In this document: positions 16,424 through 46,570 of the stretch, in pieces
Numbering within the stretch: the stretch's first letter is position 1
How the letters are laid out: the number at the start of each line of letters is the position of its first letter
Assembly (NCBI RefSeq): GCF_037126465.1
Contig: NC_088202.1
Coordinates: forward strand, 29,682,213-29,746,212
Direction: 5' to 3'
Source of the DNA: Ornithodoros turicata
Taxonomy: Eukaryota > Arthropoda > Arachnida > Ixodida > Argasidae
DNA: 64,000 nucleotides
Program-made: the position numbers and the translations under genes
The notes under the pieces: model-generated
Seen by the model: only the letters and a program-made list of their open reading frames with translations
Database searches by the model: none
Told to the model about the DNA's origin: nothing

Positions 16424-16626
16424 TTTTTTGGAACCCCATAACTACGCATTTATTTACACAGTCTCTGAAACGACCTCGTATGAAACACGGGTGTCTCTTG
16501 CATGTCCTACATTCAGGGCACTTGTTAAGATGAGGAAGGGAAGTTGGTGTGTGCAAAGTGAAAAGAGTGTTGTGGCAACGGCTCCAGTGTACATGCACAG
16601 ATATTTCACTTCCGGTACACCACTCT

Positions 16627-16698
16627 CCACGTGGATGGGACTCGAGCCCACCCCATTGGATTAGCAGTCCAATGCCTTAACCACTCGGCCACCTCGTC
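16627..16698 (-). pseudogene. tRNA-Ser(GCU)-like unit c, deleted
   Basis: A 72-nt copy that lacks about 10 bases of the variable-arm/T-stem region present in the other units. Anticodon GCU is retained. The spacer that follows on its genomic right contains the Polinton insertion. Confidence 0.65.
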
Positions 16699-29216: not shown

Positions 29217-29298
29217 CGACGTGGATGGGACTCGAACCCACGCAGGCAGTGCCCATTGGATTAGCAGTCCAACTCCTTAACAACTCGGCCACCTCGTC
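29217..29298 (-). tRNA. tRNA-Ser(GCU)-like unit f, abutting LINE 2
   Basis: 82 nt, anticodon GCU, box B GGTTCGAGTCC intact, 6 of 7 acceptor pairs. Its 5' end directly abuts the poly(A) tail of the LINE at 29299-30008 (minus strand: A-run, then CGACGAGGTGGCC). Confidence 0.65.
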
Positions 29299-30008
29299 GT
29301 TTTTTTTTTTTTCACCTTTATTTTTCTGAGCTTACTACTCTGAGTCACTTACGACACAATAACAGAGAGAATACGGTGTTTCTCCTCTATACCGGACACA
29401 TCAATAACACAACTTCTACAAAGCATACAGCCTTTCGCAGACTGTATCTAACCACTCAAGCACTTCTAAAAGCTGAATACAAGCTAACTTTACCTGCAGT
29501 AGTTCGGCTTTGAAATATTTCATAGGAGGACACAAGGGCGCTTTGTTCCTATCGGCCAAACGAAGCTTCCACAAACAGTACATGGCAGCAAGGAGAACGA
29601 TATCGTATCTCACATTTTCTCCGGGGGGTAATGGGTGGAAACGAATAGTATGTGGGCTAAGCGAAAGACGGCGCTTAAGGACCTTGAACTGTAAATCATC
29701 CCAAAAGAATAAAGCTTCTGTGCAGTCCAGAAAAAGGTGATCGACAGTCTCGGGCGTATTGCAAAATCTGCAGTTCACGGACCACGGAACATAGAATCCC
29801 TTCTGTTGAAGCCAAGCTTTCACGGGCAGTGTCGACGTGTGTAATTTAAAGAAAAAGGACTTCATGTTGAGCTTGACCGGCATCTTCTTGACTCTGCACA
29901 ATACATCCGTGCCATGCCACCCGGAGTCGTTTGACGGTAGATGGGCACAGGCAAGAGTACATCGAGAAGATGAGCTACCAATGTTTTCTTGGCGACAGAA
30001 AAGAGGTA
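29299..30008 (-). mobile_element. tRNA-associated LINE copy 2, 5'-truncated
   Basis: Contains the C-terminal part of ORF2 and a 3' UTR ending AAATAAAGGTG plus an A-run at the 5' end of tRNA unit f. Its 5' junction is with a tRNA-Ser half (30009-30057). It is related in sequence to copies at 30058, 44782, 46198 and 54837. Confidence 0.85.
29416..30008 (-). pseudogene. LINE 2 ORF2 C-terminal region with zinc-binding motif
   Basis: The frame carries VKKMPVKLNMKSFFFKLHTS, then the zinc-binding CRFCNTPETVDHLFLDC found at the C-terminus of Tx1/L1-like RTs (zf-RVT type), then RYDIVLLAAMYCLWKLRLAD. The start of the open frame reads through the adjoining tRNA half, which is an artefact. No RT core survives. 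Confidence 0.85.
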
Positions 30009-30057
30009 CAGAGCCCATTGGATTTGCAGTCCAACGCCTTAACCACTCGGCCACCTC
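30009..30057 (-). pseudogene. tRNA-Ser 5' half (unit g) between LINE copies 1 and 2
   Basis: From GAGGTGGCCGAGTGGTTAAG to AATGGGCTCTG, about 49 nt, ending exactly where LINE 2 begins. The anticodon loop reads CTGCAAA. Its 5' side abuts the LINE 1 A-tail. This half is what a long TSD at the LINE insertion would leave. Confidence 0.75.
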
Positions 30058-30168
30058 TTTTTTTCCTTTTATTCCACAAGTCTTATACATTCGTACACGT
30101 CACATAATGAAAAATAATGTAAAACGCTCTATGTGACTCCCAGTCACATCCAGGGAATACACTCCCGG

Positions 30169-31473
30169 TCACTTATTTTGTAAACACTCGGGTACGTCTT
30201 CCCTGTATCGTGCTATTTTGAAGGTTTCCAACATTTCTTGTTGGAAATACTCAAAAGGGGGTTTTAAGGGTTCCTCATTCCGACTCAGCATCTTGAGCTT
30301 CCACAGTGCGTGCAGGCCGATTACAATGATCATATCATATCTGGTATCCGTCCCCCTAGCCAATGGCAAAAACCTACTTGTGTGCTCGTTTAAGTACAGT
30401 GTCTTTTTCAGCTTTTGTTGTACGCCATCCCAAAAAAAACATAGCCTCATTGCAGTACAGAAATACGTGGTCAGTCGTCTCAGGCACATTACACACGCGA
30501 CAATTAAGAGTCCACGGTACAAAAATTCCTTTTGATGCAAGCCACGCCGTAACAGGAAGAATACCTGCATGAAGTCGGAAAAAAAAGTCTTCAAATCCGC
30601 TCTAATTGGCATCTTGCTTACACGGCACAAAACATCTTTCCCTTTCCCTTCTTGCGATACCGCACGATACAGAGGTGTTGGAAGTAAGGAATCGATAAGA
30701 TCACTTGCAAGTCGTTTTCTGTCGACTTCAAAAACATATTGCACAGAATATCTACAAAGCAAGAACTTAACACATCCTACAACCTCATTATAAAATCCAA
30801 GAAGCTTAGCCTTCAGTTTAACTACAGGAACCGCTATGCATGGCAGGTGCTCTCCAGTCACACACTGTAACATAGGTCTCAAGACAGGGTGGGAAGCGTT
30901 CCTGAGAGAGAACAGTCTCATGACTATCTGTTTTACAAACAAATGATGTAGTCCGAGCCCACCGTCTGTGACACTTTTGAACAGGTTTTCTCGTCGCATT
31001 GGCTCGAATTTGGAACACCATATCAAAGTTGCAAAAATCCTGTGAAGCACATGAATGTTCTTGCGAGCACACGGGAGAACCTGCAATAAATACACAACCG
31101 TCGCAACCAGAAACATATTGCAGACTTTTGCTCGCTGAAATATAGATAGTTCGCTTGGTTTGCACGTGAAAGCCTGCTTACGCACCTTGTCCGCTACCGT
31201 CTTCCACACATGGTTCGTGTTGATACTATCTTCCAAAGGCACCCCCAGATATTTTGGTAGGTTTGTCTGCCATGTCATGCCCTCATATTCCTTAGGCTTG
31301 GATCCCCACTCGCCTGCCCATACACCGACAGATTTATCTTTGTTTAGTTGTGCCCCTGATGCTTCACAGTATCCTTCGACAATTTCCATGACTTTGGCAA
31401 CGCTTGGCAACGCGGTCAGGTCATCCGCATACGCAAGCGTCTTTATCTCCGTGCTGCCAAGTGTTAGCGTGCA
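30169..31473 (-). pseudogene. LINE 1 ORF2, RT catalytic box to C-terminus
   Basis: Begins just after the hairpin-tRNA insertion. LAYADDLTALPS (catalytic YADD, about 31440-31405) is followed by the NKDKSVGVWAG region, LPKYLGVPL, and a degenerate zinc motif near 30490 corresponding to CRFC..H..C in the other copies. It ends at 30169 and the 3' UTR runs to 30058. The frame is open apart from the insertion. Confidence 0.85.
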
Positions 31474-31486
31474 CGTCAGTACACTT
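31474..31486. repeat. 13-bp target site duplication CGTCAGTACACTT (left)
   Basis: Exact copy at 31871-31883. The two bound a 384-bp insertion that splits the RT gene just upstream of its YADD box. Confidence 0.9.
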
Positions 31487-31635
31487 AAACAACGAGATTT
31501 GGCCGAGGCAGACCAACAATTAGGGACGACACAGACAAGTAAGCCTCAAACGCCCAGAAATTTCTGGGCGTTTGAGGCTTACTTGTCTGTGTCGTCCCTA
31601 ATTGTTGGTCTGCCTCGGCCAAATCTCGTTGTTTA
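31486..31635. repeat. Perfect 150-bp palindrome (2 x 75 bp, no loop)
   Basis: 31486-31560 is the exact reverse complement of 31561-31635. The centre is CGCCCAGAAATTTCTGGGCG. Outer bases TAAACAACGAGATTTGGCCG recur inverted at the far end. It forms the left part of the TSD-flanked insertion. Such a loop-free perfect palindrome is unstable and must be young. Confidence 0.95.
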
Positions 31636-31870
31636 CGTCGTTTACAATCGCCCTGCCTCGTGTCTGAATGAGAGAGTGAGTGAGAAAGATGTAAGAGAGA
31701 ATGGGAATAGCGTGGTTGGTTGTCCGTCCCCCCCCGTACTTGAGGCACTCAATGGCTCAAGGGAAACGGCGTGCTGGTGTGGTGTAGCGGTTAGCATATC
31801 TGACCGGAAATCAGAAGACCCAGGTTCGATTCCTGGCGTCAGCACCTCTTTTCCCTGAGTTGTTTCCATT
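31487..31870 (+). mobile_element. Hairpin-plus-tRNA insertion in LINE 1
   Basis: 384 bp bounded by the 13-bp CGTCAGTACACTT duplication. It is composed of the perfect palindrome, about 135 bases of unrelated sequence including a GAGAGAGTGAGTGAG stretch and a C-run, then a tRNA-like sequence followed by CTCTTTTCCC, a potential Pol III terminator. The tRNA is at the 3' end, not the 5' head expected of a SINE. I cannot match it to a known class. Confidence 0.85.
31771..31845 (+). tRNA. tRNA-like sequence, cloverleaf, predicted anticodon GGA
   Basis: 75 nt. GTGCTGG pairs with TCAGCAC (one G-T). Box A-like TGGTGTAGCGGTTAGC; anticodon stem TCTGA/TCAGA closing the loop CCGGAAA (anticodon GGA, but C at the usual U33); T-arm CCAGGTTCGATTCCTGG with consensus box B. 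A T-run follows within 10 bases. It lacks the long variable arm expected of a serine tRNA, so it is probably a tRNA-derived element and not a translating tRNA. Confidence 0.6.
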
Positions 31871-31883
31871 CGTCAGTACACTT
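31871..31883. repeat. 13-bp target site duplication CGTCAGTACACTT (right)
   Basis: Partner of 31474-31486. Confidence 0.9.
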
Positions 31884-33891
31884 GTTTATGCTTCGGCACA
31901 GGGGTTCTAAGTATAAGTCAAACAGATGTGGGGACATGGGGCAGCCTTGACGTACTGAGTTCTGCAGTGCAATGGGTTCGCTCAGGATTTTATTGATGAC
32001 CAGACGAGTCTCAGCCATTGCGTAAGACAGGCGTATCCTGTTTATGAAGATAGGACCCATATTCACTGCTTCAAGGATGGAAAACAGAAAGAAATGATTC
32101 ACCCGATCGAACGCTTTGGACAGGTCGAACTGCATCATAGCTGCCTGGTCTCCTTCTAGTCTGCATCTGTCCAGTACTGTCCTTGCCACATGTATGTTGC
32201 TTTGAATACTAATCTTTGTATAGCACAGGTTTGATGTTCACCCACTAGTTTTGGCATTACTTTCTGCATCCTCGCTGCAATGACTTTGGCGAATATTTTG
32301 TAGTCGACGTTGGTGAGGGTTATCGGTCTGAAATCTGTCACTCTTGGAACGGATCCGTCAGGGATTTCTTTTGGGATGAGCACTGTACTTGAACGTTCCA
32401 TTGAGTACGGTAGAATGTTGTTAGTCTCAGTCTCACTAAATACCTTCACTAGCACTGCACTCAGCAAGTCAACATGTTTCTTGTAGAACTCAGCGCTGAT
32501 ACCATCGGGCCCGGGTGACCGATTGTTCTGCAGTGCTTTGATGGCTTGACGAACTTCATCCTTTGAAATCGGCGCCTCTAGTTCTTCCTTCTCTTGGTCA
32601 TCTAGTTGCGGCATCAACTCCCGAATTCGTTCCTGAGTCATCCCACCACCAGCTGGGCGTGCATTTCCCAACAAAGAGTTATAATAATTCCAGAAAGATT
32701 CTTCTATGTCCTTCTGCGTATCAATCTTCCGTCCACCGTCACTCATTTTAGTAATCTTGTTCCGAACGGAATGCCTTCTTTCTTTCTGGTGAAAATATTT
32801 GCTTGGCCGCTCATCCGGCAAGAATCCTTGTGACCTTGCTCTTATCATGGCGCCCTGGCACTTGCTTTCTTGGATAAGACTGAGCCCGAGCTTTGTATCC
32901 TGAATATCTTCAAAGAATTCTCCTGGCATCTCAGATTCCATCTTGATCAGACTGCACAATCTTTTCTTCAATGTGTTTTCTTCATTCTTTTTATATGACG
33001 TTATACTACATCTTTCAATGGCCGTTTCGCGCACTTTCTGTTTTGCAATTTCCCACTGTACACCATACGCTTGCTCCGAATGTTTCATCTGTACAATGAG
33101 CTGTCTTACAACGTAATTCATCTTGTAACAGTTCGTTGTTGAGCTTCCACTGTTGCCACCCACAGTTTCTTGTCTTATCTGCCACATCACCAAGCGTTGC
33201 AAGAACCATACAGTTACCACTAAAATGAACTGGTAATACACTGTACCTACTAACTCCGTTGCGTTTTTCCCCGACACATATATACGATCAAGTCGTGCTT
33301 CGCTGCCCCTTTGGTAGTGCGTGTACCTCATCGTTTCTTTCACACATTTTGCTATATCTACCAGGTTGCACAGGCTCACAATATTTCTCAGTACATCCAC
33401 ACTCCTATCATGCTGTGATCTTCCATGGCTTCTGTCTTTCGCGTTGAGAACACAAATGAAATCACCAAGCACGACTGTAGTACGATCTGTTTCTATGTAC
33501 TTTTGTAAAGAACAAAAGAATGTCTCTCTCTCTCTTTATCATCGTTTGGTGCGTAAATGCACATTAGTTGCCACACTTCGTCATCAAACGCAATATCCAG
33601 TAAAGCCATATGGCCATTGCTATCCGCAACGTAAACCACTGGTTCGTAATCCACTGACCTTCTAACCAACAATAAACAGCCTCCTGACCCTTCAACGGAG
33701 CGACTAACAACAGCTTCGTACTCTGACAGGAAAAATTTTTTCCAGTAGCTCTTTGGTCCCCTCATGAGTACTAATTTTGGTTTCGTGTAACGCCAACACT
33801 TCTATCACAGGACACGTATCTAGGTACCTTCTTAGCTGATACTGTTTCTTCCTCCCAGAAAGTCCCCGGACATTAAGTGTTGTAATTCTTA
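31884..33891 (-). pseudogene. LINE 1 ORF2, endonuclease and RT N-terminal part
   Basis: On the minus strand: endonuclease motifs TTLNVRGLSGRKKQY and LALHETK (about 33885-33790), GDFICVLNAKDRS (about 33470), then the linker, then RT boxes NNRSPGPDGISAEFYKK (about 32520), VTDFRPITLTNVDYKIFAK (about 32340), MMQFDLSKAFDRVNH (about 32140) and QGCPMSPHLFDLYLEPL (about 31940). The segments 33765-33493, 33472-32156 and 32189-31839 are in different frames, so there are at least two indels. Architecture and motifs are Tx1/L1-like. Confidence 0.85.
33882..33891. repeat. 10-bp target site duplication GTAATTCTTA (left)
   Basis: Repeated exactly at 34326-34335, bounding a 434-bp Penelope fragment. Confidence 0.85.
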
Positions 33892-34325
33892 GCAGGGGGT
33901 ATGGAAACTTGGTTGAGCATTTAAAAAGTTGCCAGGGTTGTGTTGCTAAATTTCATGAGACAAAAATTTTATATAAGAGTAATAAGGGCGGTGCTTTATT
34001 ATATCGTGAAGCTTTAAGTACAAAAAATGCGGGGTCCAGGTGTGTGAGTGTGCCTTCAGTGCTGATAACTGCTCCAGTCGAGAAGTTTTTGGAAGATGCA
34101 AACAGGAGGGACGCAAGATAAGTCCTGTGCTTTTGATAAAGATAAAGTCACTATATAGGCATGCTGAGGGTGTGATTGGGAACCTTGCTGAAGAAGGCGT
34201 TGTTGGTTAGGTTAGAGGATATAAACCAGGTTTGATAATAATAAATCCTTGTTTGTCAGTCTGTGCCTGTGTGTTGTGTCGTCTTTTGACTTGTTCCCCG
34301 GCACGGGGGTTTTATCGCTTTTAAA
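33892..34325 (+). mobile_element. 5'-truncated Penelope-like fragment (PLE 3)
   Basis: The plus-strand frame 33909-34121 reads FHETKILYKSNKGGALLYRE, then AGSRCVSVPSVLI, a C-terminal GIY-YIG-domain pattern of Penelope-like elements (H..C spacing, REA, CVSVPS). A 3' UTR with TAATAATAAATCC and CTGTGTGTTGTGTCG follows. The 10-bp TSD lies at 33882-33891 and 34326-34335. It sits between ORF1 and ORF2 of LINE 1, close to the start of the endonuclease. Family assignment is moderate. Confidence 0.65.
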
Positions 34326-34335
34326 GTAATTCTTA

Positions 34336-35207
34336 ATTGCCTTCCCTTCATTGCACTGAGGAATTGGTTACATCTCCCATATTTGCAGGGCGGTTTTTAT
34401 CTTACCTCTAAATATTTGTGAAGGTCAGGCGTCCTTTTGCAATACATAGTCCAATTCAAATATCAGTAAAGTCCATGTTGTCTAGCATTGACTGCCCCAC
34501 CTCCAGGGGCCCTGGACCACAAACGGTCTTGCTTTCCGGTTTCATTCTCTTTACTTTGCTAACAGGGACACTCTCACAATTTTTTTTTTTTTTGTATCCG
34601 TAGTATCACGCTGTTGCTGTCCACTTTCTGCACATCCTTCAGATACATTGAATCTAGACTTTCGTCGTTTCGTTGTTTCCTCACTGGCGTCTTTTTCCGG
34701 TTCTTGATTACTCCCTGCTGTCACATCTCCCGTAGTTTCTTCATTCACGTCGTCTACAGGTGCCATGACTTCTGCATCCTTCTTTTCTGTTGGTTTCCGG
34801 GCTATCTGCTATGTCCTCGATAAAATACTCCGTCGTTCCATGTCTGGAGCTCCGTAGCTTCGAAGCATAGGTGCTGACACATTCGTCTTCCACGTGCCCA
34901 AAAGTACGACAGGCTTTGGACCAGGGCGTTTGACATTGCTTCCTTATATGGACAACCTTCTTACACTTGAGACAAAGCGGCGGTCTTCCAGATACGATGA
35001 CATCTTGGCGAGCCAGCAGTTTTTCCTTCTGAACAGTTGTATGAAGTGTTATTGCCCATACATGGTTCAACTGATACGCCCCGAACCCGGCGACTTCTTC
35101 TTTAGAAACAATATCTTTCAGTGCGTTGCCGAAGTGGTCCACGTTGTAAGGTCTTCCCGTCGGGTCAGCGTGCAGCAAAAGCGTGTTAAGTGACACGCTG
35201 CCTGGAG
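34336..35207 (-). pseudogene. LINE 1 ORF1 with CCHC zinc knuckles
   Basis: The main open part (35196-34741) contains CLKCKKVVHIRKQC and a second C-rich knuckle CRTFGHVEDEC, typical nucleic-acid-binding motifs of Tx1/L1-type ORF1. A C-terminal Lys/Glu-rich tail lies in another frame (34766-34551). The N-terminal part is at 44350-44485, beyond the gypsy insertion, and the frame continues across once the LTR element is removed. Frameshifted, so not functional. Confidence 0.75.
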
Positions 35208-35212
35208 GTATC
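35208..35212. repeat. 5-bp target site duplication GTATC (gypsy, left)
   Basis: Matches 44345-44349. Three extra bases (TAT) separate this copy from the LTR end at 35216. LINE ORF1 reads through GTATC when the gypsy is removed, supporting the assignment. Confidence 0.65.
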
Positions 35213-35215
35213 TAT

Positions 35216-35449
35216 TGAGTTTGGGAGATTGAGACTCCGTTGATCACGATGAACTCGAACTTTATTACTTTCTGGACTACATATGTCTGTTCTGCAGAAG
35301 GGATACGCCCGACTGGCGCATCAGAGTGAACGCATCGCGTGATCCCCGAAACCAGAGAACACACGCTTCCCCGCGATACGTGATGTTCTCGCGCCAAAGC
35401 GGTGCCGTCACACCTTTCTGAATCATACACCACGCAACAGTACACAACA
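35216..35449 (-). repeat. Gypsy 3' LTR (234 bp)
   Basis: On the minus strand starts TGTTGTGTACTGTTGCGTGG and ends in CCCAAACTCA, i.e. TG...CA termini. Partner of 44109-44344. Confidence 0.9.
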
Positions 35450-35462
35450 CCCCTTCCCTCTA
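35450..35462 (-). promoter_or_regulatory. Polypurine tract
   Basis: Minus strand AGAGGGAAGGGG directly upstream of the 3' LTR, the expected plus-strand priming site of an LTR retrotransposon. Confidence 0.85.
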
Positions 35463-35747
35463 GCTGACAAAATCGTCCAAATATCGCAGACGTATTCTGC
35501 GTGGTCGTGTAGAGATAGGACCACTAAGTTGCGGTGAAGACGCACTGGCTTCTGGAACAGCTGGGGAACTAGCTATATAGTGCTTGATCCATTGGAATAG
35601 ATGTAGGTGTTACAAGCCCTTGTGGGACACAGTCGCCTGTAGAAACATCAGTCGGGTTCTCAACTAACTCTAGCAGTCCGTTGCTTGGTGTGGCGGGACC
35701 TCTCATTTGGTTTAGATGGCGTCGCACAACCCTGCCATCCTGAGTTA
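35463..35747 (-). pseudogene. Gypsy integrase C-terminal fragment, separated by PLE 2
   Basis: After the PLE 2 insertion the pol frame resumes with ITQDGRVVRRHLNQMRG, the GPY/F-like C-terminal region of gypsy integrases, continuing what precedes 40289. It ends shortly before the polypurine tract. Confidence 0.75.
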
Positions 35748-35754
35748 TAACTCT
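35748..35754. repeat. 7-bp target site duplication TAACTCT (left, PLE 2)
   Basis: Matches 40282-40288 exactly. Gypsy coding sequence is continuous across it when the insertion is removed. Confidence 0.8.
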
Positions 35755-35787
35755 AGATGGGTAGAAATCCAGCGAACCGGTAGAATG
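35755..35787 (-). repeat. PLE 2 terminal direct repeat, 3' copy
   Basis: AGATGGGTAGAAATCCAGCG... on the plus strand, differing from 40249-40281 at one position (CCGG versus CTGG). Confidence 0.85.
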
Positions 35788-36286
35788 TAGGAAGGAGTTG
35801 CCTCAGGACAGAAGCCGCCGATATTTCGAACAGAGACTGTTCTTCTTCTGGGCACCGTCCTCATCATTGGCATGGTATTTAAAGGGTTAGGTGTGACGTG
35901 TTTAAAGGTTCATGCGAATTGTGGGTCAACAGCCCGGAGGGAAGAAAGGTTCCGTACGGGGTTTTACGGCCGGAGTGAATGGCTGCTTTGTTAGAGTGTG
36001 GAGGGGATTATGTGAACGTAGTGATCTAGGCTACAGACCGGTTACAGAAAAATGGAAGGTTCACGAACACGTGGACGAAACGGGACAACAGGCAAGAATT
36101 GGCAAGCATAGCGAAAGATAAGGAGGTTAGTGATTACGTGGGGAAAATTCCAGAACCAACAACGGTTTTTTTATTATTATTATTATTATTGTAATGCAAA
36201 GTTGTGGCATGCAATAAAGAAAGTAGAAAGCAGTGGCCATGCAGAACATAACAGATGATAATGGAGGTAGAAGGGAAAAGCATATT
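35788..36286 (-). other. PLE 2 3' untranslated region
   Basis: No gene. On the minus strand there is a (TAA)n-like run mirrored at 36170-36190 (ATTATTATTATT on plus) and, near the end, an ATGATGAGG segment followed by the small hairpin GAACAGTCTCTGTTC and then GAAATATC (35850-35810). That arrangement loosely recalls a hammerhead ribozyme core; see findings. Confidence 0.5.
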
Positions 36287-36950: not shown

Positions 36951-39279
36951 GCTTGCAGTGCTTTTGATGGAGTTAGCGTGTTGAACGTGCTTGCATGTTT
37001 TGCAGCGCGGGAGGTTGCAGGGTCGTGTTCCCGTGTACGGGGTGCTTGTTTTGCTGATTTTGGCATTGACCAAGGAGTCCGCCAGGTTTTTTGCGCGTCG
37101 GTATGTCACCTGTATGGGATTTGTGAATATATTGCTAAGTCGGTCACTGCTTTGAAGGAGGGGCTCGTGCTTCTGTAAAATGGCTTTGATGTTTGGAAGT
37201 GCGTTGGAATATCTTGTGATGAAGCTTATTTGGCACGCGTCAGGATTTTTTCGGTTTTCCAGAACCTCGTCTCGATCGAGTGTGAGTGCCTTGCGACGGA
37301 ATTCGGTTAGGAGGGAGTCTGTATAGTCCCTTTTGGCAAGTGTACTGCAGAGTTCGTCAAGCTTCTCAGCGTAATCTGTGTCGTTTGAACAAACTGCGTA
37401 GTCTTACACTCTGCCCATTAGGAATTCCAACCTTACAGTGACGCGGGTGGTGACTCTTGAAGTGAAGGTATTGTTGTTTGTCAGTTGGCTTTTTGTACAG
37501 GGTTGTGATGAGGTTGCCGTTGTCTAGTGATACTGTGGTGTCGAGGAAGTTAATTAAGTGAGTTGACTGTTGTGATGTGAACTTTATGTTGCTATGTGCG
37601 GTGTTCAGTAGATCTATGAACTTTTGAAATTCATGTTCCCCGTGTTCCCATATTATCAGTATATCATCGATGTATCGAAGGTACACAGTGGGTTTCAATG
37701 AGAGGGCGCTGAGAACTTTGTTTTCTAAGAACCCCATTAGGATATTTGCGTATGTGGGTGCAACAGGTGTGCCCATACTTGTACCGTGTACTTGTAGGTA
37801 GTGTTCAAAATTGAACTCGAAGTAGTTCAGTTTAAGGACCAAGTTTATTAGAGCGAGTATGGTTTCCGTGTCTTTTCTGGTGTTTGTTATAGAAAGGGTA
37901 TTGCAGAGGGCTGTGATTCCGTCGTTGTGTGGGATGTTAGTATACAGTGATGTCACATCCAGCGTGGCTAGTATTGTGTCCCTACCAAATGTACGAGTGT
38001 TGTTTATATCTCTGGTTATTCTGAGGAGGTGGGGTGTGTCTTGTACATGCGATGGCAGTGTTGTCGGAATATGGTTTAAATAGTGGTCCAGGAATTTCGA
38101 GAGTCTTTCTGTTGGTGTGTTGTTATTAGATACAATTGGCCTGCCGGGGATGTCAGCCGTGTAGAGCTCGTTGGCGTGTACCTTGTGGATTTTGGGCAGT
38201 AAATAGAAACGACCTGCGCCTGTGTTTGATGGGGTGAGATATCTGAGGTCATCACGTGTGATGAGCTTTCGTTCGTGGAGGTCCTGTATGGTATGGGTTA
38301 TTAGCGCCGTGTACTCCTTTGTTGGGTCATGGTCCAGTTTGAGGTAGTGTTGCGTATTGTTGAGTTGCCTATGAGCTTCAGAAATATATTTATCTGTGGG
38401 CCAGATGACGATACTCCCACCCTTATCTGCGGGCTTGATAATGATATCATCTCTGTCAGCTAGCGCTTTGATGATGTCACGCTGTGTTTTAGTGAGGTTG
38501 TGACCACGCGAGCTTTGGGAAATACCGCGAAGGATGTCGTTGCTTACTTGTTTAAAGTACAGGTCTAATGCGGGTTCTCGGCCGTGATTTGGTGTCCAGG
38601 TTGATGGTAGTCGGAAGTCGTTGTTGTTTTCTTGTGTTGAATGAGCGAAGAATTCTCTAAGGCGTAGCCGTCTCGCAAAGTCTGATATGTCTTTGTGGAT
38701 TTCGTATTCGTTAACAGAATTGAGTGTAGGGCAGAATGTTAACCCCCTAGAGAGGACTTGTAGTTCCTTGCTGGTTAGTGAGCGTGATATATCTATTACG
38801 GTGCTTGCGTCAGCGTTTTCTCGGGGTGACTCAGCGATGTTGCGGGGAGTTGTGGTTGTGGTGCTGGAAATTATTTGTTCGGCTGCTGCGTGTGTCGTGT
38901 TAGTGGGTCCGGTATCCGTGTCGTTGTTGGAATTAGGTTTTCCGAGTTTTGAGTGTTCCTTGTTAGCTAGCTCGTGGTTGAGTTGTTGAATGTGTAGTTC
39001 GAGAGTGTTTGCCTCCGCGTCGGTGAGACTGATATTATTCATATGGGCCTGGATCGTAGCAAGTTGCGCGTGGCACTGTTTCTTTAATATTTCTAGAAAC
39101 GTACGGGCTGTGTTGTTAAGGGCTGATGCCCACTCTAGCTCTAGTTCAGGTGTCAGTTTTCCTAATGCAGGAACTGTTTTAGGGGTGAGGCCTTTAGGTA
39201 CTGTGTTGTGAGCCAGGTGGTGGGTGTAGATCCGTAGATGATGTAGGTATCGGCTACGTTTCTCCATGAGTTTTCGCAT
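36951..39279 (-). CDS. PLE 2 ORF2: Penelope-type reverse transcriptase and linker
   Basis: The RT ORF is open from 39279 to 37366 (637 aa). The N-terminal part is a helical region rich in Gln/Asn. RT boxes: IIKPADKGGSIVIWPTDKYI, GRFYLLPKIHKV (PKIHK), GRPIVSNNNTPTERLSKFLD, LATLDVTSLYTNIPHNDGI (motif A), VHGTSMGTPVAPTYANILMG (B), LRYIDDILIIW (catalytic, about 37670), NFLDTTVSL. The frame then shifts near 37366, and the CKTCKHVQHA linker appears at 37109-36951 before the SINE. This is a canonical GIY-YIG-associated Penelope RT. The downstream shift may be a mutation. Confidence 0.85.
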
Positions 39280-39324
39280 TCATAGAAAGTTCGTTGACTG
39301 CATGGTGGGCTGGTGATTAGATAG

Positions 39325-40227
39325 TCAACGGTGTTTTCTGCGTGATGTGCGCGTGCGTCGTGTCTGTGGGGTCGGTGGCTGTGGGGTCAGTGGCTGTGGA
39401 GACTCGCTGTGTTCCTCGATGTCATCTGTCTGTGTTTGCGTGCTTGTGGTTTTCCGTGTCACAGTTTGCGCGAACTTTGTGTGTGTGCGGGTTGTGTTCG
39501 GAGTGTTGTCGTTTGCCGCGTGTGTATGCGTGGGTGCAGTGGTCGTTGTGGTCCCCTTTGATGCCATCGTGTGTTCTGGCGTGTTTGCGGTGCTGGCACT
39601 TAAAGTGTAAGCTGGTTGAGGATGTTGTGTTTGAGCGTTTGTCAGTGCAGGACGGCATCTATGGACCATCAGGTGTTTGATGTTGTGTGCCATAGCTCGT
39701 ACGCCTGCGTGGTTTGGGTGGATGCCGTCCCGAGCGAGATGTGCTTCAGCGTGGTATTCGAAAGGTGCGTGTGTGATAACCATAACGTTGGTGTGTACCT
39801 GACGCATGTGGATGAGGTGGTTGTTGACAGCGTGCGCCTTCCTGTCGAACTCGTGTAGCCATGTGTCCTGGTATATGTATGCTCGGTGTTTGTTCTGTCT
39901 TCGGGGAAGTATCGTTGTCAGTACTATTTCAGCGCCTGGTCTGTTGTTTGTGATGAAGGAAACTAGTGCTTCGAATTCCTGGATGACATGTTGTGCTGTC
40001 GACCGTGCGATGTCGTTGGTCCCTACGTGGAGTATGAAGTGCGTGATGTTCGGTGGGGCGGCGGTCACATGTGTCATGATGTCTCGTATTCTTGCGCCGC
40101 TTGAAAAGTGTATGTGAGGTCCATGTTCTCCGTGTGGGATGTGTTCGTGGATGTACTTGTAACAGCTATCCCCTAGGAGTGCGACATGTGAGAAAGAGAG
40201 GACGGGTTGCTTACCTCCTGAGGCCAT
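39325..40227 (-). CDS. PLE 2 ORF1: SGNH/GDSL-type hydrolase, 300 aa
   Basis: The best start is the Met of MASGGKQPVLSFSH (40227); the open frame upstream runs through the TSD into gypsy DNA and is not part of the gene. SGNH blocks: block I VALLGDSCYKY, block III-like LHVGTNDIAR, block V ARDGIHPNHAG (Asp-x-x-His dyad). The catalytic Ser, Asn, Asp and His are all present. The C-terminal ~90 residues are Thr/Gln/His-rich and end in an Arg/Lys tail. It ends 45 bases before the RT ORF on the same strand. SGNH esterases occur in ORF1 of some CR1/L2 LINEs and in rotifer telomeric Athena/Terminon elements; a role in RNP-membrane or particle biology is only speculation. Confidence 0.8.
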   Translation of the reverse strand: MASGGKQPVLSFSHVALLGDSCYKYIHEHIPHGEHGPHIHFSSGARIRDIMTHVTAAPPNITHFILHVGTNDIARSTAQHVIQEFEALVSFITNNRPGAEIVLTTILPRRQNKHRAYIYQDTWLHEFDRKAHAVNNHLIHMRQVHTNVMVITHAPFEYHAEAHLARDGIHPNHAGVRAMAHNIKHLMVHRCRPALTNAQTQHPQPAYTLSASTANTPEHTMASKGTTTTTAPTHTHAANDNTPNTTRTHTKFAQTVTRKTTSTQTQTDDIEEHSESPQPLTPQPPTPQTRRTRTSRRKHR

Positions 40228-40248
40228 CGGATCGTCAGTAGCGAACGT

Positions 40249-40281
40249 AGATGGGTAGAAATCCAGCGAACTGGTAGAATG
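40249..40281 (-). repeat. PLE 2 terminal direct repeat, 5' copy
   Basis: Partner of 35755-35787; lies immediately inside the TAACTCT duplication. Confidence 0.85.
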
Positions 40282-40288
40282 TAACTCT
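40282..40288. repeat. 7-bp target site duplication TAACTCT (right, PLE 2)
   Basis: Partner of 35748-35754. Confidence 0.8.
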
Positions 40289-40348
40289 GTACGACACAGG
40301 TCCAGTAGGCTTCTCAATTGTTGCAGGGATCCGTGGCTGCCCATGGCC

Positions 40349-41470
40349 TTAGTTTCGCACATACACTGGGTCACAGTCTTTAAAGGTCCTTACGGCTGGT
40401 CTGGGAGCCTGCTTTTCCTGTACCTTCTGCCGATTACTTATTCCGTCGGGATGCAATCTGTCCAGACAAGTCTTCAACCTGCGTCGCATAAGGAGTTCGG
40501 CTGGACTAAAACCTGTTGATGAGTTTGAAGTGGTATGCTGATGCAAGAGGAAACGAGCAAGTCGTTGCTGCCAGCTGCCATGTACAATACGTTTCATTGT
40601 GTGCTTCATTGTTTGTACCATTCGTTCTGCCTGTCCGTTGCTTGCAGCGTGATAGGGAGCCACGAGAATTTGCCTTATAGCGTTTCTTCGAAGGAATGTT
40701 TGGAAGTGAGCAGGTGTGAACTGAGGTCCGTTGTCGCCGACCACAACATCTGGAATGCCGTGCGTAACGAAGATCTCCCGTAGTGCGTTGACAGTAGCTT
40801 CGGCAGATGTAGATGGCATGAGCTTTACCTCTAGCCACTTTGAGTAGGCGTCAACTACTAGGAGGAATGATTGTCCATAGAATGGACCAGCAAAGTCCAC
40901 GTGAAGACGAGACCATGGAGAGTGTGGAACCTCCCAAGAATGTATCGGCGCACCTGGTGGTGCATGCCTCGTGGATTGGCATTCGGTGCAACTCTTGACA
41001 CACTGTTCGATGTCCTCATCGAGCTTCGGCCACCATACGTACGACCGAGAAAGGGCTTTTATGTGTCCAATCCCTGGATGACCCAGATGGAGCTTGTCTA
41101 ACACTTGCTGTTGACCCTCTTTGGGAATTATTACTCTGTTTCGCCACAAGAGGCAGTTCTTATGAGCAGATAACTCATAGCGTTTCGACCAGAATGTCTT
41201 GAACTCATCTGGACCTTTGTCATCTGGCCAACCCTTCCACACCCAGTTGAGAGCTCGGGAAAGTTGAGGATCGCGTATAGTCATGCTTGCAATGTCCTTC
41301 GCGTGAAGCGGTGGACTGGCCAGCTCTTCGGTGAACAGCACTTCAGGCGGACACGGTATAGTTTCGTCTTTGACGGGAAGAGGCAAGCGGCTTAGAGCAT
41401 CTGCATTAGCGATTTTCTTCCCAGGTCGATGAACAAGCTCAAACTCGTAAGCATTAGCATCTGAGACCAA
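40349..41470 (-). pseudogene. Gypsy pol: RNase H end and integrase
   Basis: Opens in the RNase H tail (EFELVHRPGKKIANADALSR), then the zinc-binding HHCC domain (HLGHPGIGHIK...CVKSCTECQ), then the DDE core: LHVDFAGPF (first Asp), DVVVGDNGPQFTPAHF (second Asp), HAASNGQAERMVQTMKH (Glu). The core residues are all present. The C-terminal region is cut by PLE 2 at 40281. Integrase would insert the cDNA into the genome. Confidence 0.9.
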
Positions 41471-41800
41471 CGAAGCATTCTTGGTGAGATTATCATCGGA
41501 GTGGGCTTTGACCTTGTGAATATTCCCAGAAGTGGTTGATGGTCAGTCACAATTGTAAGTGCACGTCCATAGATAAAATGATGAAATATCTTTACTCCAG
41601 CGATAATGGAGAGAGCTTCACGGTCGATTTGTGCGTAGTTACGCTCTGTAGTTGTCAACGTGCGTGAACAGAATGCAACTGCAGCTTCGCGTCCATCTGG
41701 CTGTTGCTGACTTAGTACAGCCCCTACACCATAAGGTGATGCATCACACGGGAGGAATATAGAACGTTTCTTGTCGAATGGTACAAGAACGCTATCTCAT
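41392..41800 (-). pseudogene. Gypsy pol: RNase H
   Basis: TERNYAQIDREALSIIAGVK and HHFIYGRALTIVTDHQPLLG are the RNase H Glu and Asp boxes of gypsy pol. The frame is offset from the flanking RT and integrase frames, and a stop near 41795 (minus-strand TGA) separates it from the upstream part, so the polyprotein is broken. Confidence 0.85.
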
Positions 41801-42825
41801 GAGAGAAGTTCTTTTGCTCGCTGGAAAGCCTTGTCATGGATGGTAGTCCAGTTCCTCTCTGCGTCCTTGTCGAGAAGACGACGCAACGGCTCAGCAACGG
41901 TAGCCTTGTCCTTCAGAAAGGAATTGTAGAAATTCAGCAGACCAAGAAAAGCTTGAAGCTCTTGCTTGCTGTTCGGACGCGGTGCATCATGGATCGCTGT
42001 AACCTTGGAATCTGCGTGGTGAATGCCGTTAGCGTCGACAAGATACCCCAGGAATTCTACGGATGACACACCAAACAATCATTTGTCCTTTCTGGCTCGC
42101 AGGCCAGCACGGGCAAGTCGACGTAACACTTCGCGCAATCGTCTTGCAAGTTCGTCCTGGTTAGCAACTTGAATCAAGATGTCCTCAAAATAGGGCGCTA
42201 CTCCCTGTAGTCCCACGAGAAGTTCGTCAATTAAGTGCTGGAAAAGTCCTGGAGCTAGATTCACACCGTACTGGAGGCGTTTCACTTTAAAAGCACCCCG
42301 GTGTGTGATGATGGTTTGTGCTTCTGCAACATCATCGTCTACACGTAGTTGAAGATAGGCCTGTGCGAGATCTATTTTTGCGTCGCAGCCACCACCAGAC
42401 AAGCTTGAAAGAAGATGGTTGACTGCAGGAATGGGGTATGGATGAGCACGCATGCCGGTGTTGATAGTAACTTTGTAGTCGCCACACAGTCTTACTTCTA
42501 CTGACGGTTTAATGACAGGAACAACAGGAGTAGCCCATTTTGGATTTGAAATTGCTTCTATAACATTATCGGCGATAAGACGATCGAGTGCAGCATCGAT
42601 TTTCGGACGTAATGCCAGTGGAACATTCCTTGCCTTCAGTCGGATGGGTGGAACAGAAGGATCTAGTGGAAGTGAAACAACAGGTCCTGTGTAATTTCCA
42701 AGGCCTTCCTGAAATACTTCTTTGAAGTCGTTGAGTACTTGCTCTAGGGGGTTGGCATCCATGTAGTGAACACCCGTCAACTTGATACCCAATGGTGCGA
42801 ACCATTCGTACCCCAGTAGACTCAC
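41797..42825 (-). pseudogene. Gypsy pol: reverse transcriptase
   Basis: RT boxes WATPVVPVIKPSVEVRLCGD, CDAKIDLAQAYLQLRVDDD (motif A), LQYGVNLAPGLFQHLIDELL (B) and a degenerate catalytic box VAPYFEDILIQV, where YxDD has become YFED. A connection region FLGYLVDANGI...LLNFYNSFLKDKA follows in the frame 42078-41797, after an in-frame stop near 42079. The damaged catalytic aspartate and the stop indicate a dead pol. Confidence 0.85.
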
Positions 42826-42876
42826 TCGTTCTCCGTCAGCGATAAGAAGCCGCAGCGGACCCCTGAAGGATCCATA

Positions 42877-43119
42877 CTAAACATCAACGAAGCATGTGCC
42901 ACGCAGCGGAATAGGCTGCTTTTGGAAATCGCGTCGTGAAATGGAGAGTAGATGAATAGTTGGGCCCTTCTCTGGCCATAGGCGCTTGTATGTAGCTTCA
43001 GAAATAATAGAATAATCGGATCTTGACTCGACTTCCATCTGGCATTCAGACCCATCTATTCTCACTTTGGTGTACTGCTTCCGGAGAGTGGATGTTCCTA
43101 TTTCGTTCACATTGTTCAT
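42877..43119 (-). pseudogene. Gypsy aspartic protease, active-site motif lost
   Basis: The position and the MEVESRSDYSIIS stretch match the protease region, where DTG is expected before SDYS. Here it reads ESR, so the catalytic Asp is gone. KRLWPEKGP downstream fits gypsy proteases. Confidence 0.65.
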
Positions 43120-43189
43120 GTGATAGATACTTGCAGTATCTGAGACATGTTCTTCTGGCTGTCCAACTGCATGCGTTGTTGGCTAAGAC

Positions 43190-44012
43190 TTTTGACCCTG
43201 TCGCTGTTGCTGTCGGGCAGGTGTTTGTACTTTCTGGTCACGAGAGTTATTTGCACGACACACGCGTTCAATGTGTCCTTTTTTGTGACAGTAACGGCAA
43301 ATTGCTTCTCGAAACGGGCACCGGTCACGGTCATGTGACGCTCCACATCCGTGGGTGGCACGAAGTCTTCGGGGATCCTGAATGTCGGGACTCCGCTGTG
43401 GATCCTTTGCGGTTACGATCCCGGCGATCATTATTGATGTGATGGGCTGCGGAAGCTAACCCATGAGTTTGTATTTCCTTCGCTTGGTCGGCCGCTGCTT
43501 CCGCAGCGAGGGGTTTTGCTTTAGCGCTCTCGAAGGTTAACTCCGTTTCGGCAAGCAGACGCCGTTATAACCCGTCATCACGAATGCCGCACACAAGCTG
43601 ATCACGTAGTCTTTCACTCAGTGTGGATCCGAAGTTGCAGTCCTCTGCTAGCCGGCGTAACTCAGTCACGTATGTAGTGATCCTTTCGTTGGAACGTTGC
43701 ACGCGTTTGTGGAACTGGAAGAGGCTGTATATTACCGATGGCTTCGGAGTGAAATGACTTTTCAGCAGTGCGATCAGTTCATCGTAGGACTTTTCGGATG
43801 GAGACGCTGGTGAAACGAGGGATCGAACGATTCCAAGCGTCTTGATACCACAAACAGCCAGCAGCGTAGCACGCTTTTTTGTAGCATCAAGACTTTTTTG
43901 TAGCATCCGTGATAGCATTAGATTCGCAATAGAAGCGCAGTTGATCCGCGTAGACATCCCACGAAGAAGGATTGGAAACATCGAACTCACTGATTGTTCC
44001 AATACCTGCCAT
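43190..44012 (-). pseudogene. Gypsy gag with CCHC zinc knuckle
   Basis: Starts near 44012 (MAGIGTISEFDVSNPSSWDV). Capsid-like region RATLLAVCGIKTLGIVRSLV, YDELIALLKSHFTPKPSVIY and RITTYVTELRRLAEDCNFG. The zinc knuckle CRYCHKKGHIERVC lies at about 43310-43265. Several frame changes and a stop near 43565 break the ORF. Gag would package the RNA. Confidence 0.8.
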
Positions 44013-44086
44013 CTGATGTCTCGTGAACTTGTGAATCGGGCGCGATCACGTACGAAAGTCAATCTTCCCCGGAGAAGGCTCAGTAG

Positions 44087-44104
44087 ATCCCATCCTCGTC
44101 GCCA
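44087..44104 (-). promoter_or_regulatory. Primer-binding site complementary to tRNA-Ser 3' end
   Basis: The plus strand here reads ATCCCATCCTCGTCGCCA, i.e. the last 18 nt (with CCA) expected of the tRNA-Ser(GCU) whose gene-like units fill this region. It lies 4 bases from the 5' LTR (44109) on its internal side. Confidence 0.85.
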
Positions 44105-44108
44105 AGGT

Positions 44109-44344
44109 TGAGTTTGGGAAGATTGAGACTCCGTTTATCACGATGAACTCGAACTTTATTGCTTTCTGGACTACATATGTCTGTTTTGCAAGAAAGGATA
44201 CGCCAGACCTGGGCATCAGAGTGAACGCATCGTGTGATCCCTGAAACCAGAGAACACACGCTTCCCCGCGATACATGATCTTCTCGCGCCAAAGCGGCGC
44301 CGTCGCACCTGGCTGAATCATACACCACGCAACAATACACAACA
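44109..44344 (-). repeat. Gypsy 5' LTR (236 bp)
   Basis: TG...CA termini on the minus strand (TGTTGTGTATTGTTGCGTGG to CCCAAACTCA). Aligns to 35216-35449 over its length with scattered differences and small indels. Confidence 0.9.
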
Positions 44345-44349
44345 GTATC
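44345..44349. repeat. 5-bp target site duplication GTATC (gypsy, right)
   Basis: Partner of 35208-35212. Confidence 0.65.
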
Positions 44350-44485
44350 GTCGATAGTATAACCTTGTACCCATGTTTCGTTGCTGCGTCCTGTCCATCC
44401 CGGCTAGGCGTAGCCCTTGGAACCGCTCGCGACGAGCTTATGACAACAACGTCCGTATGCTATCGCATCCGGAAGTAGAATCTGC
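44350..44485 (-). pseudogene. LINE 1 5' end and ORF1 N-terminus
   Basis: The minus-strand frame PSRDGQDAATKHGYKVILST continues into the ORF1 frame at 35207 when the gypsy element is removed. Upstream it joins 18 nt of tRNA-Ser. Confidence 0.65.
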
Positions 44486-44503
44486 CCACTCGGCCACCTC
44501 GTC
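44486..44503 (-). pseudogene. tRNA-Ser 5' fragment (unit h) at the LINE 1 5' junction
   Basis: GACGAGGTGGCCGAGTGG only, then LINE sequence. Preceded on the minus strand by the usual GGTTGCAAAAAA array spacer. Confidence 0.75.
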
Positions 44504-44699
44504 TTTTTTGCAACCCTACAACTACGCATTTATTTACACAGTCTCTGAAACGACCTCGTATGAAACACGGTTGTCTCTTGCATGTCCTATATTCAGGACA
44601 CTTGTTAAGATGAGGAAGGGTAGTAGCAAAGTTAAAAGAGTGCTGTGGCTACAGCTCCAGTGTGCACGCACAGGTATTTCCCTTCCGGTACGCCACTCT

Positions 44700-44781
44700 C
44701 GACGAGAATGGGATTCCAACCCACGCGGGCAGTGCCCATTGGATTAGCAGTCCAACTCCTTAACCACTCGGCCACCTCGTC
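44700..44781 (-). tRNA. tRNA-Ser(GCU)-like unit i, abutting LINE 3
   Basis: 82 nt, anticodon GCU. Acceptor GACGAGG pairs with TCTCGTC at 6 of 7 positions (one G-T). Box B is GGTTGGAATCC, one substitution from consensus. Its 5' end abuts the A-tail of LINE 3. Confidence 0.6.
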
Positions 44782-45862
44782 TTTTTTTTCCCCACCTTTT
44801 ATTAACAAATACACACAAGTACAGGTACGTCACACGGTTGCAACGCCGAGGGCCATTACAGAACGTCTAAAGAGAAAACTGAATACCTTTTGAATTTGTA
44901 TATAACAATTTTACAAGTACGTAAGGGCATCAAACAATGTCTCTAACCAATCTGGCAGTTCGAAACATCGCATAAGGCACAGCTTAAGTTGAGATATTTC
45001 TATCTTAAAGTATTTCATAGGGGGAGGCATTAACGGTTTTTCGTTCCTGTCAGCCATACGAAGTTTCCACAGACAGTACAAGGCTATAAGCATGACAATA
45101 TCGTACCTGACTGTTTCCCTCGGGTGTAATGGGAGAAACCGTATGGTGTGTGGGTTAAGCAGAAGTCGAGTTTTTAAAGCTTTATACTGGAGATCGTCCC
45201 AGAAAAACTGGGCTTCTGTGCAGTCTAAGAAAAGGTGGTCATGCGTTCCAGGAACTTTGCAGAATCTGCAGTCTACAGACCAGGGCACGTATATGCCCTT
45301 CTGCGCGAGCCATGCCTTGACAGGTAGTATTGACGTATGAAGTTTGTAAAAGAATGTCTTCATGTTTGGTTTGATTGGCATCCTTTGGACTCGAACCAAA
45401 ACATCCCTGCCTGGCAAACTGGGTGGAATATCTCGGTAGACAGGCACAGGGAACAATGTGTCGATCAAGTGGGCGCCAGCGTTTTCTTGTTGACAGACAA
45501 GAGGTATTCAAGACTGGCTTTCAAAAACAGCATGCACTCAACGACCTCCTTGAAAAAGTCTGTTAACCGCATCGTTCCCTCTGTGAACGTGACGTGTAAT
45601 TCCGGGATGTAATTATATGTAAGAATGCGTTTTACTCCCTCGAGAACTGGATGCAGCTCCTCACGAATAAACCAGAGTCTCATGACCAGTTGTTTTACAA
45701 AGAGGTCCTGTAGGCCGAGACCTCCATCACGAAGTTTTCGAAAAAGATAGTCGCGACGCATCCTCTCAAATATAGAGCACCAGATTGTGGTGCCAAAAAT
45801 CCTGTGACAGGCGTGCACTACTTTGCGTGGGCATTGCAAGACTTGCAAAAGGTAAACCCGTT
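44782..45862 (-). mobile_element. tRNA-associated LINE copy 3, flanked by ~48-bp tRNA duplication
   Basis: 1081 bp with 3' end AATAAAAGGTGGGG plus an A-run at tRNA unit i. The 5' end joins tRNA half j (45863-45912). The tRNA half and the first ~48 nt of unit i share the otherwise rare GTTAAGGAGTTGG variant, as expected of a true TSD. Confidence 0.9.
44911..45862 (-). pseudogene. LINE 3 ORF2 C-terminal part
   Basis: The frame 45848-45465 has MRRDYLFRKLRDGGLGLQDL. A frameshift near 45470 leads into 45468-44911 with VQRMPIKPNMKTFFYKLHTS, the zinc motif CRFCKVPGTHDHLFLDC and ETVRYDIVMLIALYCLWKLR. Same protein region as LINE copies 1 and 2. The RT core is absent through 5' truncation. Confidence 0.85.
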
Positions 45863-45912
45863 CAGCCCACTGGATTAGCAGTCCAACTCCTTAACCACTC
45901 GGCCACCTCGTC
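45863..45912 (-). pseudogene. tRNA-Ser 5' half (unit j), TSD copy upstream of LINE 3
   Basis: GACGAGG to AATCCAGTGGGCTG, about 50 nt, then LINE sequence. Differs by about one base from the matching part of unit i. Confidence 0.8.
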
Positions 45913-46115
45913 TTTTTTGCAACCCTACAACTACGCATTTATTTACACAGTCACTGAAACGACCTCATATGAAACACGGGTGTCTCTTGCATGTCCTATA
46001 TTCAAGGCACTTGTTAAGATAAGGAAGGGAAGTAGCTGTGTGTAACGTTAAAAGAGTGTTGTGGCTCCAGCTTGAGTGTACACGCACAGGTAGTTCACTT
46101 CCGGTAAGCCACTCT

Positions 46116-46197
46116 CGACAAGGATGGGACTGGAAACCACGCGGGCAGAGCCCATTGAATTAGCAGTCCAACGCCTTAACCACTCGGCGACCTTGTC
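46116..46197 (-). tRNA. tRNA-Ser(GCU)-like unit k, compensatory acceptor stem
   Basis: 82 nt with GACAAGG and CCTTGTC, a fully paired 7-bp acceptor stem that differs from other units at both partners of one pair. Anticodon GCU. Box B is poor (GTTTCCAGTCC) and box A has TCGCCGAGTGG, so transcription is doubtful. It abuts the A-run of LINE 4. Confidence 0.6.
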
Positions 46198-46570
46198 TTT
46201 TTTTTTCTTTTCCACCTTGATTTTTCTGAGCGGTCAGTTACAACACAGTAACAGAAAGAGTACGGTGTTTCTCCTTTATACTGGACACATCGACAACGCA
46301 ACTTCTACAAAGCGGACAGCCCTTCACAGATCTTATCTAGCCACGTCTAAAAGCTGAGTACGAGCTAACTTAATCTGCAGCAGTTCGGCTTTGAAATATT
46401 TCATAGGAGGACACAACGGCTCTTCGTTCCTATCGGCCTTACGAAGCTTCCACAAACGGTACATGGCAGCAAGAAGAACGATACCGTATCTCACATTTCT
46501 CCGGAGCGTAATGGGAGGAAACGGATAGTATGTGGGCTAAGCGAAAGACTGCGCTTAAAGGTCAGCTATG
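46198..46570 (-). mobile_element. tRNA-associated LINE copy 4, short 3' fragment
   Basis: 3' UTR (AAATCAAGGTGG plus an interrupted A-run at unit k) and a decayed ORF2 C-terminus that aligns with 29300-29690 (the GAAATATTTCATAGGAGGAC and CGAAGCTTCCACAAAC segments on the plus strand). 5' end near 46570. Confidence 0.8.

Follow-up and report, generated by a model that had tools for sequence, protein, structure and literature searches.

Why do LINEs (long interspersed nuclear elements) at one tick locus end, copy after copy, at the start of a tRNA gene? The question is raised by a 64,000-nucleotide stretch of contig C2 of Ornithodoros turicata (C2:29,682,213-29,746,212, henceforth referred to as the window; 1.07-Gb assembly, 379 contigs). 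Within its tRNA-Ser(GCT) array, four minus-strand LINE copies have their poly(A) end at, or at most 3 nucleotides (nt) from, a tRNA 5′ end (29299, 30058, 44782 and 46198). A first-pass annotation attributed these copies to one LINE family specific for tRNA-Ser. The present analysis indicates that a lineage of L1-type LINEs in O. turicata very probably targets tRNA genes of many isotypes. The position of insertion, given here as a position within the tRNA, differs between families: F1, h, r and L3 lie mostly at the tRNA 5′ end, s and k at position 4, g and f at position 7, and a mostly at positions 15–17. The LINE nearly always runs in the direction of the tRNA, and the duplications, where measured, are mostly 13–18 bp of the same tRNA.

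Genome-wide 3′ flanks of subfamily F1

The 3′ end of the window subfamily F1 was used as a genome query and gave 81 matches, from which the best 40 of 215 candidates and a partial 41st copy were scored. The resulting list is incomplete, with known copies such as p and the window copy L4 outside the 40. Dispersed 3′ flanks were read for 36 copies and 32 were scanned with Rfam, four masked flanks (L041, L063, L066, L069) being excluded. A tRNA above the gathering score was present in 15 of 19 flanks of one set and 8 of 13 of the other. Together with window copy L1 and the copies d1, d2 and e, all in tRNA-Ser, this places 27 of the 41 copies at a tRNA. Two further copies are followed by tRNA-like sequence below threshold (L057 and, by eye, L059), and two by a 5′ tRNA fragment and then another LINE (L037, L047). 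In a control set of 18 other loci (116,240 bp), no tRNA above threshold was detected.

ARAGORN also called 23 tRNA-bearing flanks (L057 gained, L036 lost) and assigned them to 13 isotypes: Thr, Phe, His, Gly, Ala, Lys, Glu, Met, Val, Arg, Pro, Leu and Ser, the Ser call (L052) being doubtful. The genomic 3′ flanks, rightly chosen as a check in the first-pass annotation, bear out target-specific LINEs with their poly(A) at tRNA 5′ ends, but not the specificity for serine that this annotation had proposed. In 19 of 22 cases the distance between the poly(A) end and the first tRNA base is -1 to +3 nt (+9, +25 and +29 in the others), a count that leaves out L057 and L036, the latter having no clear poly(A). 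Orientation of tRNA and LINE agreed in 23/23 Rfam-scored cases. Over columns 1–24 of these 22 targets, near-invariance (20–22 of 22) is seen at T8, G10, A14, G15 and G18 of the A box, as is expected for tRNAs in general.

At one F1 locus (L046), a tRNA-Glu and, closely behind it, a tRNA-Gln lie downstream of the copy.

Rejoined target sites of family a

All 25 family-a candidates were scored, giving 20 strong copies and one short 3′ end (21 copies); four matches at 71–72% were left aside, as was one copy's second piece. Flanks of 19 of the copies were read, and all but L088 showed tRNA-like sequence by eye after the poly(A). No tRNA was called by ARAGORN in single flanks, as expected because the genes are split. 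With Rfam at E values up to 0.1, a partial tRNA on the LINE strand was detected in 8 of 19 flanks, three of them above the gathering score at the junction.

The 5′ ends were sought for 17 copies, of which 11 were full-length, 5 were not, and one lay in a masked interval. Ten of the 11 full-length copies are flanked by a perfect duplication of 13–17 bp in tRNA sequence, four with an extra base before the LINE. Upon rejoining the two flanks, ARAGORN called a tRNA in 8 of 10 cases and in none with either flank alone; the Tyr-like and Ser-like sites gave no call. Mismatched joins gave a tRNA in 18 of 90 combinations, partly because three sites are alike. The eight restored sites carry six isotype names, two of them doubtful. 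The nick falls at tRNA position 15–17 in seven joins and at ~8 in Ile(TAT), and about 31 nt of the tRNA gene are left upstream with the remainder downstream.

LINE families in the tRNA-Ser arrays and family g

Contig C1 contains a 36-kb tRNA-Ser(GCT) array (L001-L004) and a neighbouring region of GCT and UCN genes (L033, L028, L005, L029, L030), both with many LINE insertions. At least eight LINE families are located in tRNA-Ser arrays; these are about 64–77% alike in alignable DNA, yet have their target in common. Family h is a full-length LINE whose open reading frame 2 (ORF2) spans 1138 aa; tRNA position 1 comes directly after the poly(A), and positions 1–15 (15 bp) are duplicated. Family g is also full-length (ORF2 of 1164 aa, stop to stop), with poly(A) before position 7 and positions 7–24 duplicated (18 bp). 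In the array, family a is followed by position 17 with a duplication reaching 31, and b occupies nearly the same site (18–31). A truncated g relative of 325 bp, f, is found at the site of g in three array units (L001 and L002); because it recurs in three units, array homogenisation evidently copies insertions. In UCN genes, p, q and r have the poly(A) at position 1 with duplications of ~14–15 bp, and k has it at position 4 with 16 bp duplicated. Copy d1 is followed by 13 nt of tRNA and then by d2. Insertion n is a composite, and its 3′ side was left out of the counts. Insertions l and m have TTAA on both sides and are not LINE insertions.

Insertion q (L030 2163-3572) has an F1-like placement at tRNA position 1 and an F1 LINE tail in its last ~60 bp, the remainder being unrelated, as if produced by template switching. 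Two insertions of ~6 kb lie at the D-loop TTAA of tRNA-Ser(UCN) (L033 7193-L028 3151 and L028 4123-L005 545), the second of which carries an F1 LINE copy. From their target, we take these TTAA-flanked insertions to be piggyBac-like.

An exact genome search with the first 15 nt of tRNA-Ser returned 92 sites, 72 of them in arrays. The 20 dispersed sites comprised 4 intact tRNA-Ser genes without a LINE match and 16 sites that are not tRNA genes (15 from one unrelated repeat family, and L024). With this outcome, the 15-nt pattern alone is no test of targeting.

For family g, 40 matches were obtained, 40 of 70 candidates were scored and 20 flanks were read. By eye, one flank is Tyr-like and another, partly masked, is Pro-like. 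Taken with the Rfam results discussed below, family g provides only partial support for tRNA targeting. Many g copies lie beside an apparently tandem tRNA-Ala-like repeat that is too degenerate for Rfam (contigs C66, C107, C113 and C158; loci L110-L115, L117-L119, L121, L122 and L124-L126).

The window

The tRNA-Ser(GCT) genes lie where the first-pass annotation had placed them, in units of ~285 bp, as confirmed by ARAGORN and Rfam (Table 1). The association of four poly(A) ends with tRNA 5′ ends also stood; their exactness did not, with offsets of up to 3 nt, as in L2, which is joined to tRNA position 4. Nor do the four copies with a 3′ end form one family, as DNA comparison divides them into three: L1, L4 and L5 share 84–92% identity (subfamily F1), L3 is ~70% identical to L1, and L2 resembles the other copies over short stretches only. 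With three diverged families side by side, one target was already common to three families in the window. The internal fragment L5, assigned earlier to position 54837 and regarded as a possible refutation, has no LINE 3′ end and is therefore uninformative for targeting.

The three partial tRNAs are present as reported (Table 1), but the ~50-bp target-site duplications were not upheld. The L1 case was mis-paired: the upstream half-tRNA starts at tRNA position 4 (poly(A) followed by GAGG), the downstream tRNA starts at position 1, and the two differ at 4 of 49 nt, so they are not one duplicated site. The 48-nt flanks of L3, with one mismatch between 5′ flank and downstream tRNA, may represent a long duplication or an exchange between array units, and L3 is a possible outlier among measured duplications that elsewhere are mostly 13–18 bp. 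A GTTAAGGAGTTGG variant described as rare and as the hallmark of duplication at L3 is carried also by the tRNA at 29298, and is less diagnostic for that reason. A 50-bp duplication as the rule was rejected on the window flanks, the C1 array copies and the family-a copies.

L2 appears to be a long element broken by later insertions, with the 18-nt tRNA piece at 44486-44503 as its 5′ flank; set against the 30057 side, this piece would give a duplication of tRNA positions 4–18 (15 bp). ORF1 of L2 resumes at 35211, past the long terminal repeat (LTR) element, and the ATTCTACTTCCGG 5′ motif was compared by eye with full-length copies elsewhere.

Table 1 Features of the window (window coordinates; RT, reverse transcriptase).
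Feature	Position	Strand	Remarks
More tRNA-Ser array units	16057..16698	-	No LINE match among them
tRNA-Ser(GCT)	29217..29298	-	Directly downstream of L1; ARAGORN/Rfam
LINE L1 (F1)	29299..30008	-	5′-truncated; poly(A), one extra C, then tRNA position 1; zf-RVT
tRNA-Ser positions ~4-52	30009..30057	-	L2 3′ flank; inexact match to tRNA downstream of L1
L2 3′ part	30058..33893	-	ORF2 (endonuclease, RT, C-terminus), frames broken; poly(A) then tRNA position 4
Unrelated insert	~31483-31850		Interrupts L2
ORF1 piece	34741..35211	-	Assigned to L2; CCHC knuckle match under Pfam cut-off
LTR element	LTRs 35215-35449 and 44108-44344		Splits putative L2 5′ end from rest
Putative L2 5′ end	44345..44485	-	ATTCTACTTCCGG start, beginning of ORF1
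tRNA-Ser positions 1-18	44486..44503	-	Putative 5′ flank of L2
tRNA-Ser(GCT)	44700..44781	-	Downstream of L3; ARAGORN/Rfam
LINE L3	44782..45863	-	5′-truncated; poly(A) then tRNA position 1
tRNA-Ser positions 1-48	45865..45912	-	L3 5′ flank
tRNA-Ser(GCT)-like gene	46116..46197	-	Downstream of L4
LINE L4 (F1)	46198..46558	-	Poly(A) then tRNA position 1; 5′ end without tRNA
L5 (F1)	54859..55169	-	Internal LINE fragment, both ends missing

Within the insert in L2 at 31483-31850, 156 bp match at 98.7% as an inverted repeat, and a tRNA-Ser(GGA) is called with a good score at 31773-31846 (Rfam, 63.6 bits). The LTR retrotransposon in L2 (35212-44345) itself harbours a large nested insertion, with an ORF at 37366-39279 that looks like another RT by eye. 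Serine-type tRNA bodies with a CCT (Arg) anticodon are found at 16342-16423 and 28647-28729; these are probably decayed array copies, with mischarging as a possible curiosity.

Proteins and relationships

The elements are L1-type non-LTR retrotransposons, with an apurinic/apyrimidinic endonuclease (APE) followed by an RT, a poly(A) 3′ end and a target-site duplication. The ORF2 piece of L2 aligns with human L1 ORF2p over endonuclease and RT, and the alignment of the h protein to human L1 ORF2p spans residues 3–880. A C-terminal zf-RVT domain scored above the Pfam cut-off in window copies L1 and L3, and CCHC-like knuckles were seen by eye in ORF1, where the Pfam CCHC match was below cut-off. 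Both features occur in the Tx1 clade, in which the zebrafish element Dewa is placed, and in other clades.

A quick tree was built from the tick families and 65 database rows, among them no named Tx1 reference protein. It has two supported groups, the first with h, L2 and F1 (d, e), the second with g and a, and shows a supported group apart from the rabbit and Anolis rows; k, s, b and f were assigned to groups by best tblastn match. Cuts of the first group fall on the gene boundary (position 1 or 4, e excepted), those of the second mostly within the gene (4, 7, 15–17). This pattern fits a targeting habit older than the group split, with the register shifted later. Predicted-protein relatives numbered at least 316 (7,988 candidates scored, best 120 listed). 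Among the best 120, 67 showed 34–56% identity, 66 of them without genomic context and one from O. turicata. No relative was confirmed in the viral contigs and genome contigs searched. Copies 97–100% alike and full-length copies are present among the tick families.

Weighing of the alternatives

Several results weigh against the targeting of tRNA genes of many isotypes, or limit its reach. The genome-wide surveys cover F1, a and g, with h, r, L2, L3, k, b and s outside them, and the F1 sample is a best 40 of 215. Four of the 41 F1 flanks are masked, and a tRNA is absent from the 3′ side of six F1 copies (L053, L054, L068, L070, L071 and m, of which L068 and m have one flank in common). Among the array copies of F1, e lies at position 14 in a unit without the first tRNA bases, and d2 is inserted in the opposite direction with ~11 bp duplicated. 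Copy s, with poly(A) at position 4, has its 5′ end in the spacer behind the preceding tRNA and no duplication; o likewise starts in an array spacer without duplication and has lost its 3′ end. In family a, three copies are atypical (L078, L080 and L072, where a T-arm piece precedes another poly(A)), one full-length copy (L102/L088) has a 15-bp duplication at a non-tRNA site, and several sites have common surroundings and may not be independent. For family g, Rfam passed 3 of 19 flanks as tRNA (Gly, Ile, Ser). Fourteen of its 20 flanks match tRNA-Ala at 71–79%, seemingly a repeat of small contigs; six of these matches start more than 170 nt into the flank, and the sequence adjacent to the poly(A) was judged by eye. 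Finally, both tree groups include rows from elsewhere, and the tick families are not one clade.

Three further explanations dispense with general targeting. A LINE specific for tRNA-Ser would account for the many array copies as well as the four window copies that have a 3′ end, but dispersed F1 and family-a copies lie at many other isotypes; it is highly improbable, and was rejected for F1 and a on the flanks of their dispersed copies, although it could still hold for L2, L3, h and r. It is equally improbable that targeting is absent and that amplification or recombination of tRNA arrays spread resident LINEs. The recurrence of f in three units and the origin of the L1 flanks from different units are in keeping with such spread; the same boundary at different isotypes on different contigs, the short duplications of local tRNA and the restoration of the gene by rejoined flanks are not. 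As a main cause it was rejected on the dispersed copies and the rejoined empty sites. Carriage of the tRNA by the LINE RNA, by 3′ transduction or as a tRNA-like tail, can scarcely be credited. It would explain the place of the tRNA after the poly(A), with matching direction in all 23 scored F1 cases, but the tRNA varies between copies and a duplicate of the 5′ part of the tRNA lies upstream of the LINE; the explanation was rejected on these duplications on both sides.

With tRNA genes of many isotypes as the preferred target, insertion would begin with an endonuclease nick in the antisense strand, its register fixed relative to the A box, part of the internal RNA polymerase III (Pol III) promoter; the nicked end would prime reverse transcription on the poly(A) tail (target-primed reverse transcription), and the second strand would be cut 13–18 nt downstream. 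At family-a sites the base before the duplication is A, which the poly(A) makes ambiguous; given this A, the last base of the primer may be a T that pairs with the poly(A) tail. After insertion of a boundary family, a complete tRNA gene with A and B boxes lies directly downstream of the LINE, whereas family a splits the gene. Two accounts of recognition can be considered. In one, put at an even chance, the endonuclease itself reads A-box DNA in an old animal lineage whose families would use registers 0, +4, +7 and +15 on one motif. In the other account, to which somewhat less than an even chance is given, TFIIIB/TFIIIC bring the LINE protein to tRNA genes, as proposed for Dictyostelium TRE5-A. 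An interaction of TRE5-A ORF1 with TFIIIB and a need for the B box in targeting are reported (PMC5911963). Tethering would explain how a single lineage acts at many isotypes. The constant F1 cut position in genes with differing acceptor stems fits an A-box ruler and tethering alike. Against tethering, the family-a cut lies beside an A that precedes G/T in the D loop; Ile(TAT) and Tyr are cut ~8 nt earlier, at a comparable A|GTGG or A|GATAG. The one off-target site of this family reads AATTGG, and g is also found in degenerate tRNA-Ala-like repeats not accepted by Rfam. The A|GTGG-like sites, the off-target site and the degenerate repeats lean towards direct reading of DNA, but tethering combined with local sequence choice may be compatible with all of them.

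Comparison with known systems

A diverse tRNA-targeting set in an animal would show that tRNA genes are a general LINE refuge, large genomes included. With cutting registers that differ by a few to 17 nt on one conserved motif, site finding by a LINE endonuclease becomes testable, and an enzyme whose insertions fall directly before an intact tRNA gene is a candidate safe-harbour tool. If the endonuclease does read the A box, one genome would contain a naturally occurring set of nickases, re-aimed along the same universal target, from 'boundary' families, which spare the tRNA gene, to 'splitter' families, which break it.

The literature searched by title and abstract contained no tRNA-gene-targeting LINEs in ticks and no many-isotype animal LINE, subscription papers and repeat-database entries being outside its coverage; an earlier description of many-isotype targeting by an animal LINE may exist. 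The comparisons that follow draw on the available parts of the cited accounts, in which social amoebae are the only hosts given for LINEs aimed at tRNA genes in general (PMC5911963, PMC5006619). The O. turicata LINEs share tRNA genes as targets with Dada DNA transposons (PMC3706591) and with yeast Ty3, which integrates at the Pol III start site (PMC5911963), but these are a DNA transposon and an LTR element that use other enzymes. NeSL-1_TV, LIN15_SM and LIN25_SM are, as in the tick, LINEs specific for tRNA genes (tRNA-Pro, tRNA-Arg and tRNA-Glu, respectively; PMC4640811). They differ in standing among NeSL-related families with a restriction-like endonuclease and in using one isotype each; a single isotype, as for LIN15_SM, does not describe F1, with its 13 ARAGORN isotypes, or the family-a sites, with six names including the two doubtful ones. 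Dewa, from zebrafish, is an animal LINE linked with tRNA repeats, but its target is 'the spacer of tRNA-Leu' (PMC3706591), the spacer of one isotype and not genes of many isotypes.

Close parallels are also found in the dictyostelid L1-type LINEs NLTR-A, TRE5, NLTR-B and TRE3 (PMC5911963, PMC5006619). These belong to the L1 group, carry an APE endonuclease and insert at a set distance from tRNA genes in general, and the tick families share the many-isotype targets of TRE and NLTR. NLTR-A of D. purpureum inserts 2–6 bp upstream of the tRNA, a distance almost equal to that of F1, and TRE5 inserts 40–54 bp upstream (PMC5911963, PMC5006619) and, unlike the tick families, in the opposite direction. 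The dictyostelid elements differ further in their amoebal hosts and in insertion windows outside the tRNA coding sequence. In O. turicata, by contrast, family a inserts inside the tRNA, as does g (tRNA-Ser and others), and several registers are found in one animal genome.

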